Below are positions 27,743 to 60,454 of a stretch of 64,000 nucleotides of DNA, piece by piece. Both the position numbers and the translations under genes were made by a program. The DNA is from Advenella incenata (GTDB lineage Bacteria; Pseudomonadota; Gammaproteobacteria; Burkholderiales; Burkholderiaceae_B), in assembly GCF_004217095.1 (NCBI RefSeq), contig NZ_SHKO01000002.1, positions 434,001 to 498,000 of the forward strand, in the 5' to 3' direction. Numbering within the stretch: position 1 is the stretch's first letter; each line of letters starts with the position of its first letter. The notes beneath the pieces were generated by a model, which was given only the letters and a program-made list of their open reading frames with translations, was not told the origin of the DNA and did no database searches.

Positions 27743-27790
27743 GATCTACAGTAAAACCATGGCTTGGGAGCCTGTCAGCATAAAGATAAT

Positions 27791-30700
27791 ATGACCGAAG
27801 AAACGGCAGACAACCGGCTGACCTATGCGGCGTTTATCAGTTACAGCCACGCTGATAACCGACAGGAGGGGCGCAAATGGGCAGACTGGCTGCATCACGA
27901 ACTGGAAACCTACGAGGTGCCTGCCGATCTGGTGGGCAGACCCAATCGTGCCGGCAAGCCAATTGCGGCACAAATCTACCCTGTTTTTCAGGATGAAAAG
28001 GAGCTATCGGCCAGCGCCAGCTTGACTTCTGCTCTGACCGCAGCACTTGACGCTTCTGCTTACCTTGTCTACCTGAGCTCGCCGCAATCGGCCCGATCTG
28101 TCTATGTAAGCGAAGAATTGCGCCGCTTTAAGCAGACCGGCAAGGGTGATCGGATTATCGCGTTGATTCTAGCCGGCGAACCGGAATACGGTGCCGAGTC
28201 GTCCGCGCAGCAGTGTTTTCCCGAGGTGCTGCGTTTTCGTGTGGACGAGTCGGGCAATATCGATCACAGCGTGAGCCAGGAGCCCATTGCTGCAGACGTC
28301 CGTCTGCCCGGCACGCAAGAACAGGGCTTTACGACACCAGAGGCGTACCGACAATCTTTACAGGGCGATCGCACACTTTCCCGAAAGGAGGTGGAGCGGC
28401 GCGTTCAGTCCTACAAAGATCGGCTTGATCTGGCCAAACTCAAGATTATTGCAGGTGTGCTTGATGTGCCGCTGGGTGACCTGACGCAGCGTGATCAGGC
28501 CTATCAACTGGCCAAGGCCAGGCAGCGCACGAAGATCGTCAAGCGGATTGCGGTTGTGATCGGGGTACTGGCTGTGATGGCGATGGCGCTGGGTGTATAT
28601 GCCTGGACAGAGCGCAATACTGCGCAAACCATGCTGTCACGTTCATTGTTTCTGTCTGGGCTCAATAAGATTGATCAGCGTGAAGAGGGAGAAGGCGCGG
28701 CCTATATGGCAGCTGCTGCCCGCTACGGCAACGAACGGACTGCGTTATACCTGCAATCGATGCTGATGCGCCAGAACGGGATGACGCCGATGCCCAGGCT
28801 GGATTCAACACCCGAGTTCAGCCCCGACGGGCATTGGATTGCCGCGCTCAATGCGACATCTAACGAGCAGCGGGGCCTGCAAATATGGGATGCATACACG
28901 CAGAAGGTGCATACCCTATTGACCGATGCCAAGGCCAACACTTTTTCGAAGCTGGCTTTTGATGGTCAGAACGCGCTGTATTTTATGACGGCCGACAACA
29001 CGATAGAAAAGTGGCAGGACGGCAAGCCGCAAGAGACGGTTTATGAGGCGCCCGACGATTTGCGTATCGTCTCTTTTGCGCCGGGTGCAGATGGCAGATG
29101 GCTAGTTATACAGGGCTGGCATGTCGCCGACGGCAAGATGCAGTACATCAAATCACTGCTGTTCAATATGCACGACGGGCAGACGGTGATTGACCAGGTA
29201 CCGGTGCGACAACGCGAAGGCGGTAATACCCAACGCTACCTGTTCGCAGCGCAGGGCAACGCCATTGCATTTCACGAGACCGAGGACAATGACAACCGTG
29301 TGCGCGTATATCCCATGGATGCTGACGGAAAACTGCAGCAGGCAAGGGATTATGTGGTGCCGGGCGGGATTATCTGGGCAAGGTTCAGTCCTGATGCACG
29401 CCATTTGTTTGTTCGTGCGAACAACGGTTTGTATCACATTGACTTGCGGCGCAACGATAGTCAGATTGCCAAAGTTGCTGGCCAACTGAGTGCCGAAGAA
29501 ATTTACTTTAACGATGATGGCAAGACTTTTGTCCTGGTCTGGCAAAGTAATTATGCTGTATACGATATGGACAGCAATACGCCGGTTTCCTCTGGTAACG
29601 CCGAAGTCAGTATTTCAGCCATGCTGCGTGATGACGTGGCCAATGTGTCTCCCGATCTCACACAACGAGTGGAGAACCAGGAAGGGATGTTTTTTCTGGT
29701 CACTGATCTGGCACCGCCATTATTGCGCTCGCAATTGAATCTGGGGCCGGATCTGGTGTCGTTTCGCGCCATGCCAGATGGTAAAGGTGTTGCGCTTTTG
29801 AAAAAAAATAGCCATAGCCTGCAGTACGCAGCGCTGGCTGGCAACGGCAAACTCACCGACTTTATACGCACCCCGGAGCAAATGGACCGCTTTGGCGTTG
29901 CCAACGAACAGGACTATATCTACACCATTTCTGTTCCCAAGCAGGATATGAGTACATTGCGATTTTATCGTGCCACAACAGGTAAACCGCTGGGAAAGCC
30001 TTTATCAGTCAGAGGTGTAATATCGTTCAGCCATGATGGCCGCACGGTATCCTCCAGAATCGATGACAATAAGATGGCGATCTGGGAAATAGAGACGGGT
30101 AAACGTTCGCAGACTTTTGGATTGCGTAAAAACGAGAAATATAAACTGTCGGCCGACTTGTCGACCATCCTGGTTCTTGAATCGCCAAACAAGTGGCGGG
30201 TGCAGCATGTTGCCACCGGCCAGGTGCTGCACCAGGAACAGACCGAACTCAAGGGTGCCTATTTCACGCCAGACAATAAATACCTGCTGGCTTTTTTCAA
30301 CAGCAAAGCCCAGCTGTATGATATGAAAGATTTTGTCAGCCGGCTCACGCTGCCTACTGCAGGCGATACGCCGAAGGCGGAATTGAGTCCGGACGGAAAT
30401 ATGCTTGCCATGGCCGAAGACAATAAATATATCCGCTTGTGGAACCTGGAGCGCAAACAGGCTGTCGGGCAGAAAATCAGAAATGATGCAGCGGGCGGCT
30501 ATTTGAAATTTTCCAGGGACGGCCAGGTGCTTTTCGCGTCCGATCCGCTTGACCTGCGCAATGTCAAAGGCATTGCCATGTATGACACCAAATCCGGGAT
30601 GCCGGTTGTGATGCCATTTGCGATCAGTCGAATAGACGACGTGGTGTTGTTGCCAAACGGCAAGGACATCCTCACGCTGGATACGCGCAGCAGACAGTCA

Positions 30701-31162
30701 ATACTGAATGTGTGGGCGGTGCCCGATGCGTTGCTTGGCCCGGTTCAGGAGCTGGCCGATCAAAGTGAAATCTACTTTGGCAAGAAGTATGACAACGACG
30801 CAGCGGCGGTGGTCGATGCGCCCAGGGTGGCGCAGCGCCCTGAATCATGGTTCTTTCAGGACCCGTACATTCGTCCTTTAGTGCCCGATTCCACGGTGCC
30901 GTTGACGGCTTATATCGAAAAACAACTTCCCATACGCAATGCGGACCAGTTGCGCCTGATCTACAACTATTGGCGCTTTCATCCGCTGGCGCGGGCTGCG
31001 CTTGCCGTGTATTTCAGTCAGAATAAGGACACCGCATTTGTAGCCAATAGCCTGATACGCATGACCAAATTACAACTGTTCAGGGTAAAGGATGAAAGTG
31101 TCAGGCAGAAAACCATGGCGCTACTTGGACAGGCGCAGGAAAATGTGCAGGAGCATCCATAA
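27791..31162 (+). CDS. Membrane-anchored TIR-domain protein with a large WD40-like beta-propeller
   Basis: A 1123-residue protein in three parts. Residues 1-150 form a TIR domain: TYAAFISYSHADNRQ opens it, YLVYLSSPQSARSVYVSEEL is the region where NADase TIR domains hold the catalytic glutamate (E109 here, possibly E108), and RIIALILAGEPE follows. A single membrane helix is at about 252-272 (IAVVIGVLAVMAMALGVYAW), after basic residues RQRTKIVKR. From about 300 to 1010 there are roughly ten or more WD40-like strands (FSPDGHWIAAL, FSPDARHLFVR, FTPDNKYLLAF, LSPDGNMLAM), enough for one or two propellers. The charge pattern puts TIR inside and the propeller in the periplasm (inference). Bacterial TIR domains often degrade NAD or make cyclic ADP-ribose signals in anti-phage defence. 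It abuts the TrkA-N/RyR gene with no gap. The ATG at 27791 lacks a strong ribosome binding site; a TTG at 27764 is an alternative. Confidence 0.85.
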   Translation: MTEETADNRLTYAAFISYSHADNRQEGRKWADWLHHELETYEVPADLVGRPNRAGKPIAAQIYPVFQDEKELSASASLTSALTAALDASAYLVYLSSPQSARSVYVSEELRRFKQTGKGDRIIALILAGEPEYGAESSAQQCFPEVLRFRVDESGNIDHSVSQEPIAADVRLPGTQEQGFTTPEAYRQSLQGDRTLSRKEVERRVQSYKDRLDLAKLKIIAGVLDVPLGDLTQRDQAYQLAKARQRTKIVKRIAVVIGVLAVMAMALGVYAWTERNTAQTMLSRSLFLSGLNKIDQREEGEGAAYMAAAARYGNERTALYLQSMLMRQNGMTPMPRLDSTPEFSPDGHWIAALNATSNEQRGLQIWDAYTQKVHTLLTDAKANTFSKLAFDGQNALYFMTADNTIEKWQDGKPQETVYEAPDDLRIVSFAPGADGRWLVIQGWHVADGKMQYIKSLLFNMHDGQTVIDQVPVRQREGGNTQRYLFAAQGNAIAFHETEDNDNRVRVYPMDADGKLQQARDYVVPGGIIWARFSPDARHLFVRANNGLYHIDLRRNDSQIAKVAGQLSAEEIYFNDDGKTFVLVWQSNYAVYDMDSNTPVSSGNAEVSISAMLRDDVANVSPDLTQRVENQEGMFFLVTDLAPPLLRSQLNLGPDLVSFRAMPDGKGVALLKKNSHSLQYAALAGNGKLTDFIRTPEQMDRFGVANEQDYIYTISVPKQDMSTLRFYRATTGKPLGKPLSVRGVISFSHDGRTVSSRIDDNKMAIWEIETGKRSQTFGLRKNEKYKLSADLSTILVLESPNKWRVQHVATGQVLHQEQTELKGAYFTPDNKYLLAFFNSKAQLYDMKDFVSRLTLPTAGDTPKAELSPDGNMLAMAEDNKYIRLWNLERKQAVGQKIRNDAAGGYLKFSRDGQVLFASDPLDLRNVKGIAMYDTKSGMPVVMPFAISRIDDVVLLPNGKDILTLDTRSRQSILNVWAVPDALLGPVQELADQSEIYFGKKYDNDAAAVVDAPRVAQRPESWFFQDPYIRPLVPDSTVPLTAYIEKQLPIRNADQLRLIYNYWRFHPLARAALAVYFSQNKDTAFVANSLIRMTKLQLFRVKDESVRQKTMALLGQAQENVQEHP

Positions 31163-32905
31163 ATGAAACTATCGCGCCGTACAAAAAGCATTCTGGTCAT
31201 ACTGGGTGGGCTCGCTGTCATCGTGCTGACCTGGAACGGCCTGGGGCAGCATTACCCACAGATCAATGAGTGGCTCTATCTGCCCGAAAGGCTGTATCGT
31301 ACCTTGCGAACGTTGATGGGGTCGGACCCGGTGTCGTCGTCATTGCCGCCGGAAAATCTGCCATGGCAACTGACATTGGTCAAAATTGTGGTGACGCTGG
31401 CGCTGCTGGCCGGGATGTATCGGATCGCCCAGAAGCTCTTTGTTGAGTACTACACCCAATTTCGACTGCTGTTCAGGCGCAACCAGATACTGGTCATTGG
31501 CATTAATCAAAAGGGTCAGGCATTGCTGGGCGATCTGAAGCGCACTCACGATACAACGGGGGTGGCCATCGAGCTGGACGCTGATCACAGTAATGCAGGG
31601 GCGTTGCGGCGTGAAGGTCATCTGGTTTATTTTGGTGATGGTACGCAAAGCGCGGTGCTTCAGGATGCAGGTATTCGCAGTGCGCGATTCATGATTTGTT
31701 TTCTGGATAAAGAGCAGACCACCATCAATGTGGTGCGGGCGCTGCACCAGATCACGCAAAAGCATCCGGAGAAATACCAGGTACGCTGTTTTCTGCATAT
31801 AGGCAACGCAAAGGTAAGCGCCATGCTGCAGCAATCGGACTATTTCGAAGATGAAAAGAAAAACGGCATTGACCTGCGCTTTTTCAATCACCATCAGATG
31901 ATTGCAAGGCAGTTCTTTGCACGGATCCCTTATGATTATGCACAGCAGATGCGCGATCCCGATGCAGCGTTCCGGCTGGTTGTCTTTGGCTCGGGAGAAA
32001 CCGCCAAAGCCTTGCTGGTGCAGGCGCTGCAGGTGATGCATACAATCAACCCAGCCTCGCCCGACATAATCGTGTGTGGCGCCGATGCTGAGCTGGCTGG
32101 CAGGCAACTGGCTGCCGAGTATCCTGGGGCCGCAATGGTGGCGTCCATCAAATATATGACATTCGATGGCGCCTATGATCATATTTTGAATGAGTTTGTT
32201 ATTGATCCACCGGCCCATCTTGTTCCTGTGGTGATTGTTGCATTTGATGACGATTCGGCCAATTTGAAACTGTCGCTTGAAATATTGCATGCGACACCCG
32301 CCGCCGCGTTTCGCGTGTACGCCTTGAACTATCACAATGATGGTCTGAATGCGCTGCTCAAGTCCCGGCAGCGTCGATTGAACCGCCTGACCTTTTTTGG
32401 CAGTCTGGAGTCGGTGTGTCAGGTGGAACTGATTACTCAGGAGCGCCTGGATATGACGGCGCGCAGCATTCACGAAGACTATCTGCAGCAACTTGCGCCG
32501 CAGCAAGGTTCGGTCAGCGAGAGTGACGCCTACAAGCAATCATGGGATCGGTTGAATGAACAGGCCAAGGACGCGAACCGTGCGCAGGCGGATCATATTG
32601 CCTACAAACTGGCTATGTGCGGGAAACTGGTGGAGACACAGGAGCAGGATGCCGGCGTGCAGGAGGCGCTGTCATTTACTGCCGAGGAGGTAGAGATGCT
32701 GGCGCAGGTGGAGCATACGCGCTGGATGGCCCAACGCTACCTTGCGGGCTGGCGCTACGGTGCCCAGCGTGATGACCAGCGGCGTTTGCATCCTTCGCTG
32801 GTGGACTGGGTGATGCTTCCCGAGGCCGAAAAACAAAAGGATCGAGACGTTGTATTGCGCATTCCCCATCTTGCGCGACGCAATGGCAACAAACCGTCTG
32901 TCTGA
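31163..32905 (+). CDS. Membrane protein with TrkA-N-like nucleotide-binding modules and a C-terminal RyR domain
   Basis: A 580-residue protein. Two membrane helices lie near residues 10-28 and 71-88, followed by a TrkA-N/RCK-like Rossmann module (ILVIGINQKGQALLGDL, from about 106) and a second Rossmann-like module (LVVFGSGETAKALLVQA, about 272-390). A C-terminal ryanodine-receptor-type (RyR) domain at about 513-570 reads HTRWMAQRYLAGWRYG, then HPSLVDW and the EKQKDRD stretch. The 45-residue loop between the helices has no TVGYG-like filter, so it is not an ordinary K+ channel. RyR and TIR domains recur together in predicted nucleotide-signalling conflict systems. The ATG follows the TIR gene stop codon directly (TAAATG), so the proteins are co-expressed. 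Function is unproven; a role as ligand-gated effector or sensor is inferred. Confidence 0.82.
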   Translation: MKLSRRTKSILVILGGLAVIVLTWNGLGQHYPQINEWLYLPERLYRTLRTLMGSDPVSSSLPPENLPWQLTLVKIVVTLALLAGMYRIAQKLFVEYYTQFRLLFRRNQILVIGINQKGQALLGDLKRTHDTTGVAIELDADHSNAGALRREGHLVYFGDGTQSAVLQDAGIRSARFMICFLDKEQTTINVVRALHQITQKHPEKYQVRCFLHIGNAKVSAMLQQSDYFEDEKKNGIDLRFFNHHQMIARQFFARIPYDYAQQMRDPDAAFRLVVFGSGETAKALLVQALQVMHTINPASPDIIVCGADAELAGRQLAAEYPGAAMVASIKYMTFDGAYDHILNEFVIDPPAHLVPVVIVAFDDDSANLKLSLEILHATPAAAFRVYALNYHNDGLNALLKSRQRRLNRLTFFGSLESVCQVELITQERLDMTARSIHEDYLQQLAPQQGSVSESDAYKQSWDRLNEQAKDANRAQADHIAYKLAMCGKLVETQEQDAGVQEALSFTAEEVEMLAQVEHTRWMAQRYLAGWRYGAQRDDQRRLHPSLVDWVMLPEAEKQKDRDVVLRIPHLARRNGNKPSV

Positions 32906-45432: not shown

Positions 45433-45508
45433 TGGTGGCCTGGGGCAGAATCGAACTGCCGACACAAGGATTTTCAATCCTCTGCTCTACCGACTGAGCT
45501 ACCTGGCC
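45433..45508 (-). tRNA. tRNA-Phe (GAA)
   Basis: A 76-nt tRNA with an encoded CCA end. The anticodon GAA lies in the loop UUGAAAA; the D-stem GCUC/GAGC and T-stem GGCAG/CUGCC are perfect. The acceptor stem GGCCAGG/CCAGGCC has an A5-A68 mismatch, which is unusual. The minus-strand promoter has TATTAT about 13 bp before the mature 5' end. It faces away from hemA and has a terminator behind it. Confidence 0.96.

Positions 45509-56677: not shown

Positions 56678-60454
<3,777 letters not shown>

Follow-up and report, generated by a model that had tools for sequence, protein, structure and literature searches.

Could a bacterium hold, in two adjoining genes, both an enzyme that makes an ADP-ribose-type signal and a membrane protein that responds to it? 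The question is raised by a gene pair of Advenella incenata, in which the gene of a TIR-domain protein directly precedes that of a membrane protein ending in a ryanodine receptor (RyR) domain. The pair lies in the stretch of 64,000 nucleotides analysed here (contig NZ_SHKO01000002.1, positions 434,001 to 498,000 of the forward strand), hereafter called the window. We propose, at a probability of roughly 0.55, that it is a module resembling Thoeris: a TIR protein sensing the envelope would make an ADP-ribose-type signal, and this would gate a membrane effector of the RCK-RyR kind. Direct action of cyclic ADP-ribose (cADPR) on ryanodine receptors is an old question of animal physiology, and a bacterial operon which seemingly has the enzyme and an RyR-domain membrane receptor side by side would make it testable in a small system. 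The discussion of a 2026 preprint on phage RyR proteins takes up the same question (PMC13232231).

The two genes and the signal that probably starts translation of the second are as follows.

27791 to 31162, forward strand: gene 1, encoding a protein of 1123 amino acids with a TIR domain, a transmembrane helix and a propeller-like region (open reading frame, Pfam).
31163 to 32905, forward strand: gene 2, encoding a protein of 580 amino acids with two transmembrane helices, a TrkA_N domain, a Rossmann-like module and an RyR domain (open reading frame, Pfam).
31149 to 31153, forward strand: AGGAG, likely ribosome-binding site of gene 2, within the end of gene 1 and 9 nt before the ATG (sequence).

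A preliminary description of this DNA had reported two large adjacent genes joined as TAAATG, and its coordinates and junction were confirmed. Both open reading frames are unbroken, and the stop codon TAA of gene 1 (31160-31162) abuts the ATG of gene 2 at 31163. Gene 1 starts with the ATG at 27791, an in-frame TTG being also present at 27764. The GC content of genes 1 and 2 is 0.535 and 0.543, against 0.552 for the window. Between Advenella species, whole-gene dN/dS was 0.07-0.16 for the two genes, which indicates that both are maintained by purifying selection.

Protein 1 carries the following features.

27833 to 28177, forward strand: TIR_2 domain, residues 15-129 (Pfam, 36.8 bits, cut-off 28).
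28115 to 28117, forward strand: putative catalytic glutamate E109 (conserved glutamate column in an eight-row TIR alignment).
28547 to 28603, forward strand: single predicted transmembrane helix, residues 253-271 (hydropathy).
28718 to 30760, forward strand: WD40-like propeller region, residues about 310-990, limits approximate (Pfam models below their curated cut-offs).

It had been described as a membrane-anchored TIR protein with a "WD40-like" propeller, and this wording is apt: the TIR_2 match exceeds its cut-off, one transmembrane helix is predicted, and several WD40-type propeller models match (best E 2.9e-21), each below its own curated cut-off. The ThsB_TIR model scored 15.8 bits, below its cut-off of 21.2, and a phmmer search of PDB with the TIR domain gave no lead. 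Residue E109, singled out earlier as the TIR glutamate, indeed falls on the conserved glutamate column of the alignment, which we take to be the catalytic column of TIR NADases, and by comparison with known TIR NADases it would be catalytic. Seven lysines and arginines occur in the 20 residues preceding the transmembrane helix and two in the 20 following it, so that by the positive-inside rule the propeller is predicted to be periplasmic. Between Advenella species the TIR domain is 86-98% identical and the propeller region 55-90%, a faster divergence that is as expected for a sensor under looser constraint.

In protein 2, the features are these.

31190 to 31246, forward strand: first transmembrane helix, residues 10-28 (hydropathy).
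31358 to 31414, forward strand: second transmembrane helix, residues 66-84 (hydropathy).
31487 to 31759, forward strand: TrkA_N/RCK domain, residues 109-199 (Pfam, 52.1 bits, cut-off 23.8).
31946 to 32458, forward strand: second Rossmann-like module, residues 262-432, limits approximate (family alignment, motif only).
32468 to 32608, forward strand: conserved segment ahead of RyR, residues 436-482, with N472, R473, H478 and K482 invariant (16/16 family rows).
32690 to 32854, forward strand: RyR domain, residues 510-564, with H518, W521, H543 and D560 (Pfam, 47.1 bits, cut-off 27.4).

TrkA_N and RyR are the only Pfam domains of protein 2. The preliminary description, which spoke of TrkA-N-like modules and an RyR domain in a membrane protein, was right about the RyR domain, the membrane location (two helices) and one TrkA_N domain. 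The plural depends on the second Rossmann-like module, which is seen as a motif and gave no match in a profile search of PDB sequences. The RyR domain matches animal RyR1-3 chains in PDB (best E 4.8e-18). The RCK part of a family profile matches TrkA, KefC, MthK and the structures 4gx0 and 4gx5; with the full-length profile the last two gave E 4.2e-17 and 6.5e-18, respectively, over a profile stretch (9-188 or 10-188) that spans both transmembrane helices. We take 4gx0 and 4gx5 to be GsuK, a K+ channel with two transmembrane helices and two RCK domains. GsuK is activated by ADP and NAD+ (PMC3510474). Three Advenella records share 80-92% identity with protein 2, whose RyR part is the least conserved between Advenella species (70-89%).

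That the RyR domain may read an ADP-ribose-type signal is suggested by a comparison with RyDEP, a phage RyR-domain protein that binds 2'/3'cADPR through H75, W78, H100 and D117 and hydrolyses it using H75 and D117 as catalytic residues (PMC13232231). Residues H518, W521, H543 and D560 of protein 2 reproduce this spacing exactly, at an offset of 443, the argument resting on the numbering given in PMC13232231 and not on an alignment with PDB entry 35tm_A. This entry, which is probably the RyDEP phage protein, was matched from residue 516 of protein 2 (46 versus 46 residues; in a second search, 48 versus 47). In an alignment of 16 family members, six of them from Advenella, E517, H518, W521, W530 and H543 are invariant and D560 is present in 14. 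Animal RyR R12 domains keep the same ligand residues (PMC13232231), and conservation therefore argues for binding but has little bearing on cleavage. Binding of a cADPR isomer was found in six of eight phage RyR homologues, and the other RyDEP homologues tested did not cleave it (PMC13232231). Separately, Pseudomonas phages of the F116/H66 group (for example NC_006552.1, 31901-32122) have an RyR-domain gene in many records, often annotated as hypothetical and once as an anti-CRISPR protein.

The adjacency of the two genes is not due to chance, since a Pfam search of the 4.9 Mb source genome, with TIR_2 as the model for TIR domains, returned a single TIR_2 match and a single RyR match, and these adjoin each other. 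The RyR gene is present in six of ten Advenella genomes and is directly preceded by the TIR gene in all six; in one of them, G265, contig ends interrupt the TIR gene, and it is the 3' part alone that stands next to RyR. A second TIR_2 gene occurs elsewhere in the genome of G309. The four Advenella genomes without RyR are smaller (2.6-3.3 Mb versus 4.3-4.9). FetAB-like genes stand 3' of the pair in 6/6 carriers, which suggests that it is a long-standing resident; the upstream side varies. In the four RyR-less genomes the FetAB genes stand in a different context, with no clean empty site demonstrable. A recent mobile island in Advenella was ruled out by the ordinary GC content, the constant FetAB-like genes and the position of the only tRNA of the window, at 45433. 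Two loci show peculiarities of their own. In G722, the FetB and glyoxalase-like matches are each in two pieces, as if frame-shifted or misassembled (L092, 3628-4850 and 10319-10906). In the Advenella genome G328, the TIR gene is separated from the glyoxalase-like gene by a PIN-domain gene (L050, 15117-15515), and protein 1 is only 67% identical to that of the window, versus 87% for protein 2.

Outside this genus, TrkA-RyR proteins form a rare, defined family. RyR was found in 3/200 genomes of the order, 8/398 of the phylum Pseudomonadota, and 7/385 and 3/339 in two classes, draws which overlap and of which 3/200, 8/398 and 3/339 count the source genome. Relatives beyond Advenella have the same layout of two transmembrane helices, TrkA_N, Rossmann-like module and RyR at 18-25% identity; among the aligned members RyR was recognised in 12/12 (at E 0.01) and TrkA_N in 10/12. 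Their neighbours are recurrently TIR or TIR-like genes. Upstream of TrkA-RyR and on the same strand, G939 has a gene for a 290-aa TIR protein that also contains a transmembrane helix and PG_binding_1. TrkA-RyR and a TIR-WD40 gene are convergent in G1173, and G465 has a TIR-nSTAND1-WD40 gene one gene off, with caspase genes flanking TrkA-RyR on both sides. On a Sinorhizobium medicae plasmid, a DUF4062-NB-ARC-TPR gene precedes TrkA-RyR with a 4-base overlap of the reading frames (DUF4062 match of 24.0 bits, just below the cut-off of 24.7), and on an Arcobacter plasmid separate TrkA_N, RyR and DUF4062-TPR genes follow in succession. DUF4062 is reported to be an NADase of TIR-like type that acts against phages (PMC13174449). 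Other TrkA-RyR genes are accompanied by patatin and a SLATT-like gene (G402, G348 and G601), by DUF4231/SLATT (G1244) or by nSTAND1-FGE (G412). Stand-alone RyR genes adjoin TIR genes in G067 and G187 and patatin in G1153; the one in G793 is some 3 kb away from a TIR gene, and that in G1234 has DUF4062-NB-ARC nearby. A scan of RyR loci with hidden Markov models (HMMs) of partner genes gave no match at G523, G383, G1253 and Sinorhizobium pEm1132b; at the last locus an annotated patatin-like gene lies at the edge of the stretch.

Using Pfam, a TIR_2 gene was found within 10 kb of RyR in 6/11 genomes (0.08 expected, P 3.6e-11) and in 4/9 TrkA-RyR genomes (0.06 expected, P 1.7e-7). When Advenella was removed and one of two congeners dropped, linkage to TrkA-RyR persisted (3/7, P 1.6e-5). 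These counts leave out G523, G383, G1253, G1153, G1234 and G793, where RyR is without TrkA_N. The P values were computed for uniform placement with rounded genome sizes, taking no account of contig ends or of defence-island clustering, and thus show linkage, not function. As for the candidate explanation that TrkA_N genes generally lie near such partners (TIR, DUF4062, patatin, caspase, STAND and SLATT were scanned), it was ruled out, a partner being present at 15/19 RyR loci, the Advenella window left out, versus 0/20 TrkA_N-only loci. The latter came from 19 genomes of the same family, are probably Kef-type, and two were shortened by contig or region ends. The HMMs of this control were mostly built from RyR loci, which makes it partly circular; the Pfam linkage count is the independent one. 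A viral scan with the TrkA-RyR family alignment gave no lead.

It had been suggested that the TIR protein makes a nucleotide which the RyR/TrkA protein binds. The RyR ligand residues at RyDEP spacing and the recurrence of TrkA-RyR alongside TIR and TIR-like genes across unrelated genera speak for this idea, though not for an obligate pair. The sequence of events that we envisage is the following. Protein 1 would be anchored in the inner membrane, and its propeller, which is predicted to be periplasmic, would meet a trigger that may be a phage or an envelope disturbance. The cytosolic TIR domains would then cluster and use NAD+ to make an ADP-ribose-type signal, a cyclic ADPR isomer being the likeliest. 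This signal would be bound by the cytosolic RyR domain of protein 2. Binding would be relayed through the RCK ring, altering membrane permeability, and growth or phage production would be stopped.

Several observations weigh against this proposal. The pairing is not fixed: the closest TIR relatives, which are 41-47% identical to the TIR domain of protein 1, lacked an RyR neighbour in a motif screen at all eight of their loci (seven genomes; one locus on a 4.1 kb contig), and other TrkA-RyR genes stand with patatin, caspase, STAND or SLATT genes. Looked at across genomes, as the preliminary description had asked, the TIR side is thus mostly unpaired, whereas the RyR side is often beside a TIR-type gene. 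Even so, 5/9 TrkA-RyR genomes lack TIR_2 within 10 kb, two of them (G348 and G1244) genome-wide, and in G412 RyR is at a contig end. Conversely, the RyR-less Advenella genomes G234 and G344 have two TIR_2 genes each. No defence gene was found by PADLOC around the pair, among the four nearest flanking genes and 10 further open reading frames of the window. As to the effector, neither GYG nor GFG occurs anywhere in protein 2, G53 being the sole glycine between the transmembrane helices; its RCK glycine motif is degenerate (GINQKG); and with an N-terminal family profile the RCK part alone aligns with the 4gx0/4gx5 channel, the transmembrane helices not. Finally, protein 2 could be a brake and not an effector, since H518 and D560, the counterparts of the hydrolytic H75 and D117 of RyDEP, are both kept.

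This brake would destroy or soak up, at the membrane, the product of a TIR protein acting as toxic NADase or signal source, much as the RyDEP glycosidase and phage sponges do; among phage RyR proteins, some cleave 2'/3'cADPR and others sequester it (PMC13232231). However, the same residues form part of a calcium channel in the animal R12 domains, cleavage did not extend to the other RyDEP homologues tested, and a membrane RCK protein is an odd site for a sponge. Moreover, D560 is lost in 2/16 family rows and H518, W521 and H543 in none, so that binding fits better than catalysis, and we regard a brake as rather improbable. The unpaired TIR relatives lend themselves to a different explanation, by which the TIR-propeller protein acts alone through NAD+ depletion and TrkA-RyR is a separate sensor, co-transcribed by happenstance in Advenella. 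Swarozyc is an example of a TIR-like NADase that needs one gene only (PMC13174449). Against such unrelated neighbours stand the adjacency in all six RyR-bearing Advenella genomes, out of ten, and the linkage to TIR in other genera, independent of Advenella; we consider them very improbable.

A non-immune role has more to be said for it, and is still unlikely. The propeller would sense the envelope state; in response, the TIR domain would adjust a nucleotide or NAD+ and the RCK-RyR protein ion flux, as part of envelope or ion homeostasis. RCK proteins are classic K+ regulators, and the normal GC content, the purifying selection, the same FetAB-like genes after the pair in every Advenella carrier and the lack of a defence neighbour among the genes scanned all fit a housekeeping function. 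The RyR family is nevertheless rare in Pseudomonadota (8/398 genomes), is carried on plasmids in Sinorhizobium and Arcobacter, and keeps company with conflict-type genes (caspase, STAND, patatin, SLATT and DUF4062).

How does the proposed signalling module compare with known systems? As in Thoeris, which couples the TIR protein ThsB to a nucleotide-gated effector, a TIR gene adjoins one that encodes a domain capable of reading ADPR-type signals. Here, however, the putative effector is a TrkA_N/RCK-RyR membrane protein and not a ThsA with SIR2-SLOG or macro domain, and the TIR domain is fused to a transmembrane helix and a large propeller-like region. Judged from its sequence, the pair would work like Thoeris, yet by known effector type it is not a Thoeris member. 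The RyR domain shares with RyDEP the identically spaced H, W, H and D, but RyDEP is a small phage counter-defence protein (PMC13232231), whereas the domain of protein 2 stands at the end of a membrane protein of the host. With the K+ channels GsuK and MthK, protein 2 has in common two transmembrane helices followed by an RCK domain; it differs in the added RyR domain and the missing GYG/GFG filter, which rules out a standard K+ channel. An alignment over the transmembrane helices is present with one profile and absent with the other. Swarozyc and other DUF4062 NADases likewise combine a TIR-fold NADase with a sensor region, and relatives of protein 2 adjoin DUF4062 genes; in Swarozyc, defence was shown with the DUF4062 gene alone, no RyR partner being present (PMC13174449). 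The animal ryanodine receptor R12 repeat is recognisable in the RyR domain through its match to RyR1-3 chains, but pore and size are not shared. On the Caballeronia plasmid pNK84, a TIR protein whose later part is 25% identical to the propeller of protein 1 is followed on the same strand by a DUF4231 gene instead of TrkA-RyR. Among the open-licence PMC matches listed (the best 15 of 2,819 and the best 40 of 6,762 in two lists), none described a TIR plus TrkA-RyR system. Nucleotide-linked roles for prokaryotic RyR domains were reportedly predicted by Burroughs et al. in 2015.

More broadly, and only tentatively, since we put it somewhat below even odds, bacteria may have a full ADP-ribose-to-RyR relay. 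TIR proteins would make a cADPR isomer, and membrane RCK-RyR proteins would be its direct receptors and permeability effectors, a prokaryotic counterpart of animal cADPR-ryanodine receptor coupling and a new class of TIR effectors used with several sensors (propeller, peptidoglycan-binding, STAND-TPR). If so, TIR signalling would gain an ion-channel-like effector class, and there would be a host-side reason for phage RyR-domain proteins that remove cADPR.

Regarding the surroundings of the pair, a setting among metabolic genes with no visible defence neighbours had been noted, and both points hold, the second for the genes scanned. Closest to the pair lie genes of metabolism or transport, namely those of TctC-type binding proteins, a GntR regulator and a FetAB-like ABC system, and a glyoxalase-like gene. 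In PADLOC, protein 2 had no match and protein 1 a weak SAVED_TIR match alone (12.2 bits, E 0.018). Among the four nearest flanking genes the ABC ATPase alone matched, via ATPase models, and the 10 further open reading frames, drawn from 87 of at least 150 aa in the window, gave none at E 1e-5. Of the eight closest TIR relatives, four were scanned with Pfam and had at most weak propeller matches, none over cut-off.

RyR and TIR genes were also met in other arrangements. On a Priestia aryabhattai plasmid (L150, NZ_CP128553.1, 1599-9808), a 94-aa RyR gene comes directly after a cyclase-annotated gene, and the cluster includes a Pycsar effector (PycTM); the cyclase-annotated gene is TPR-S by Pfam, with a cyclase match under cut-off, and a TIR gene lies past two more genes on the opposite strand. 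A Methylobacterium plasmid (L149, NZ_CP107533.1, 1-8636) encodes a 910-aa RyR protein with a weak AAA/MoxR match near a large SIR2 family protein, the two genes being separated by transposase and helix-turn-helix genes. A single protein of L041 (7041-9563) combines RelA_SpoT, TPR and a C-terminal RyR, with a SLOG-like stretch judged by eye only. In L122 (7967-14536), two RyR genes, one with TPR-S, are clustered with a TPR gene and a DUF4062-NB-ARC gene. A Rhizobium leguminosarum plasmid (L030, CP050566.1, 6986-13215) has two tandem units of a TIR gene followed by a gene for a 244-262 aa protein; these small proteins had no Pfam match at E 0.01, and the first TIR shares 40% identity with protein 1 over residues 12-274. 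Elsewhere in the window, two very long open reading frames of 1258 and 869 aa overlap on opposite strands (56678-60454, forward; 57488-60097, reverse).

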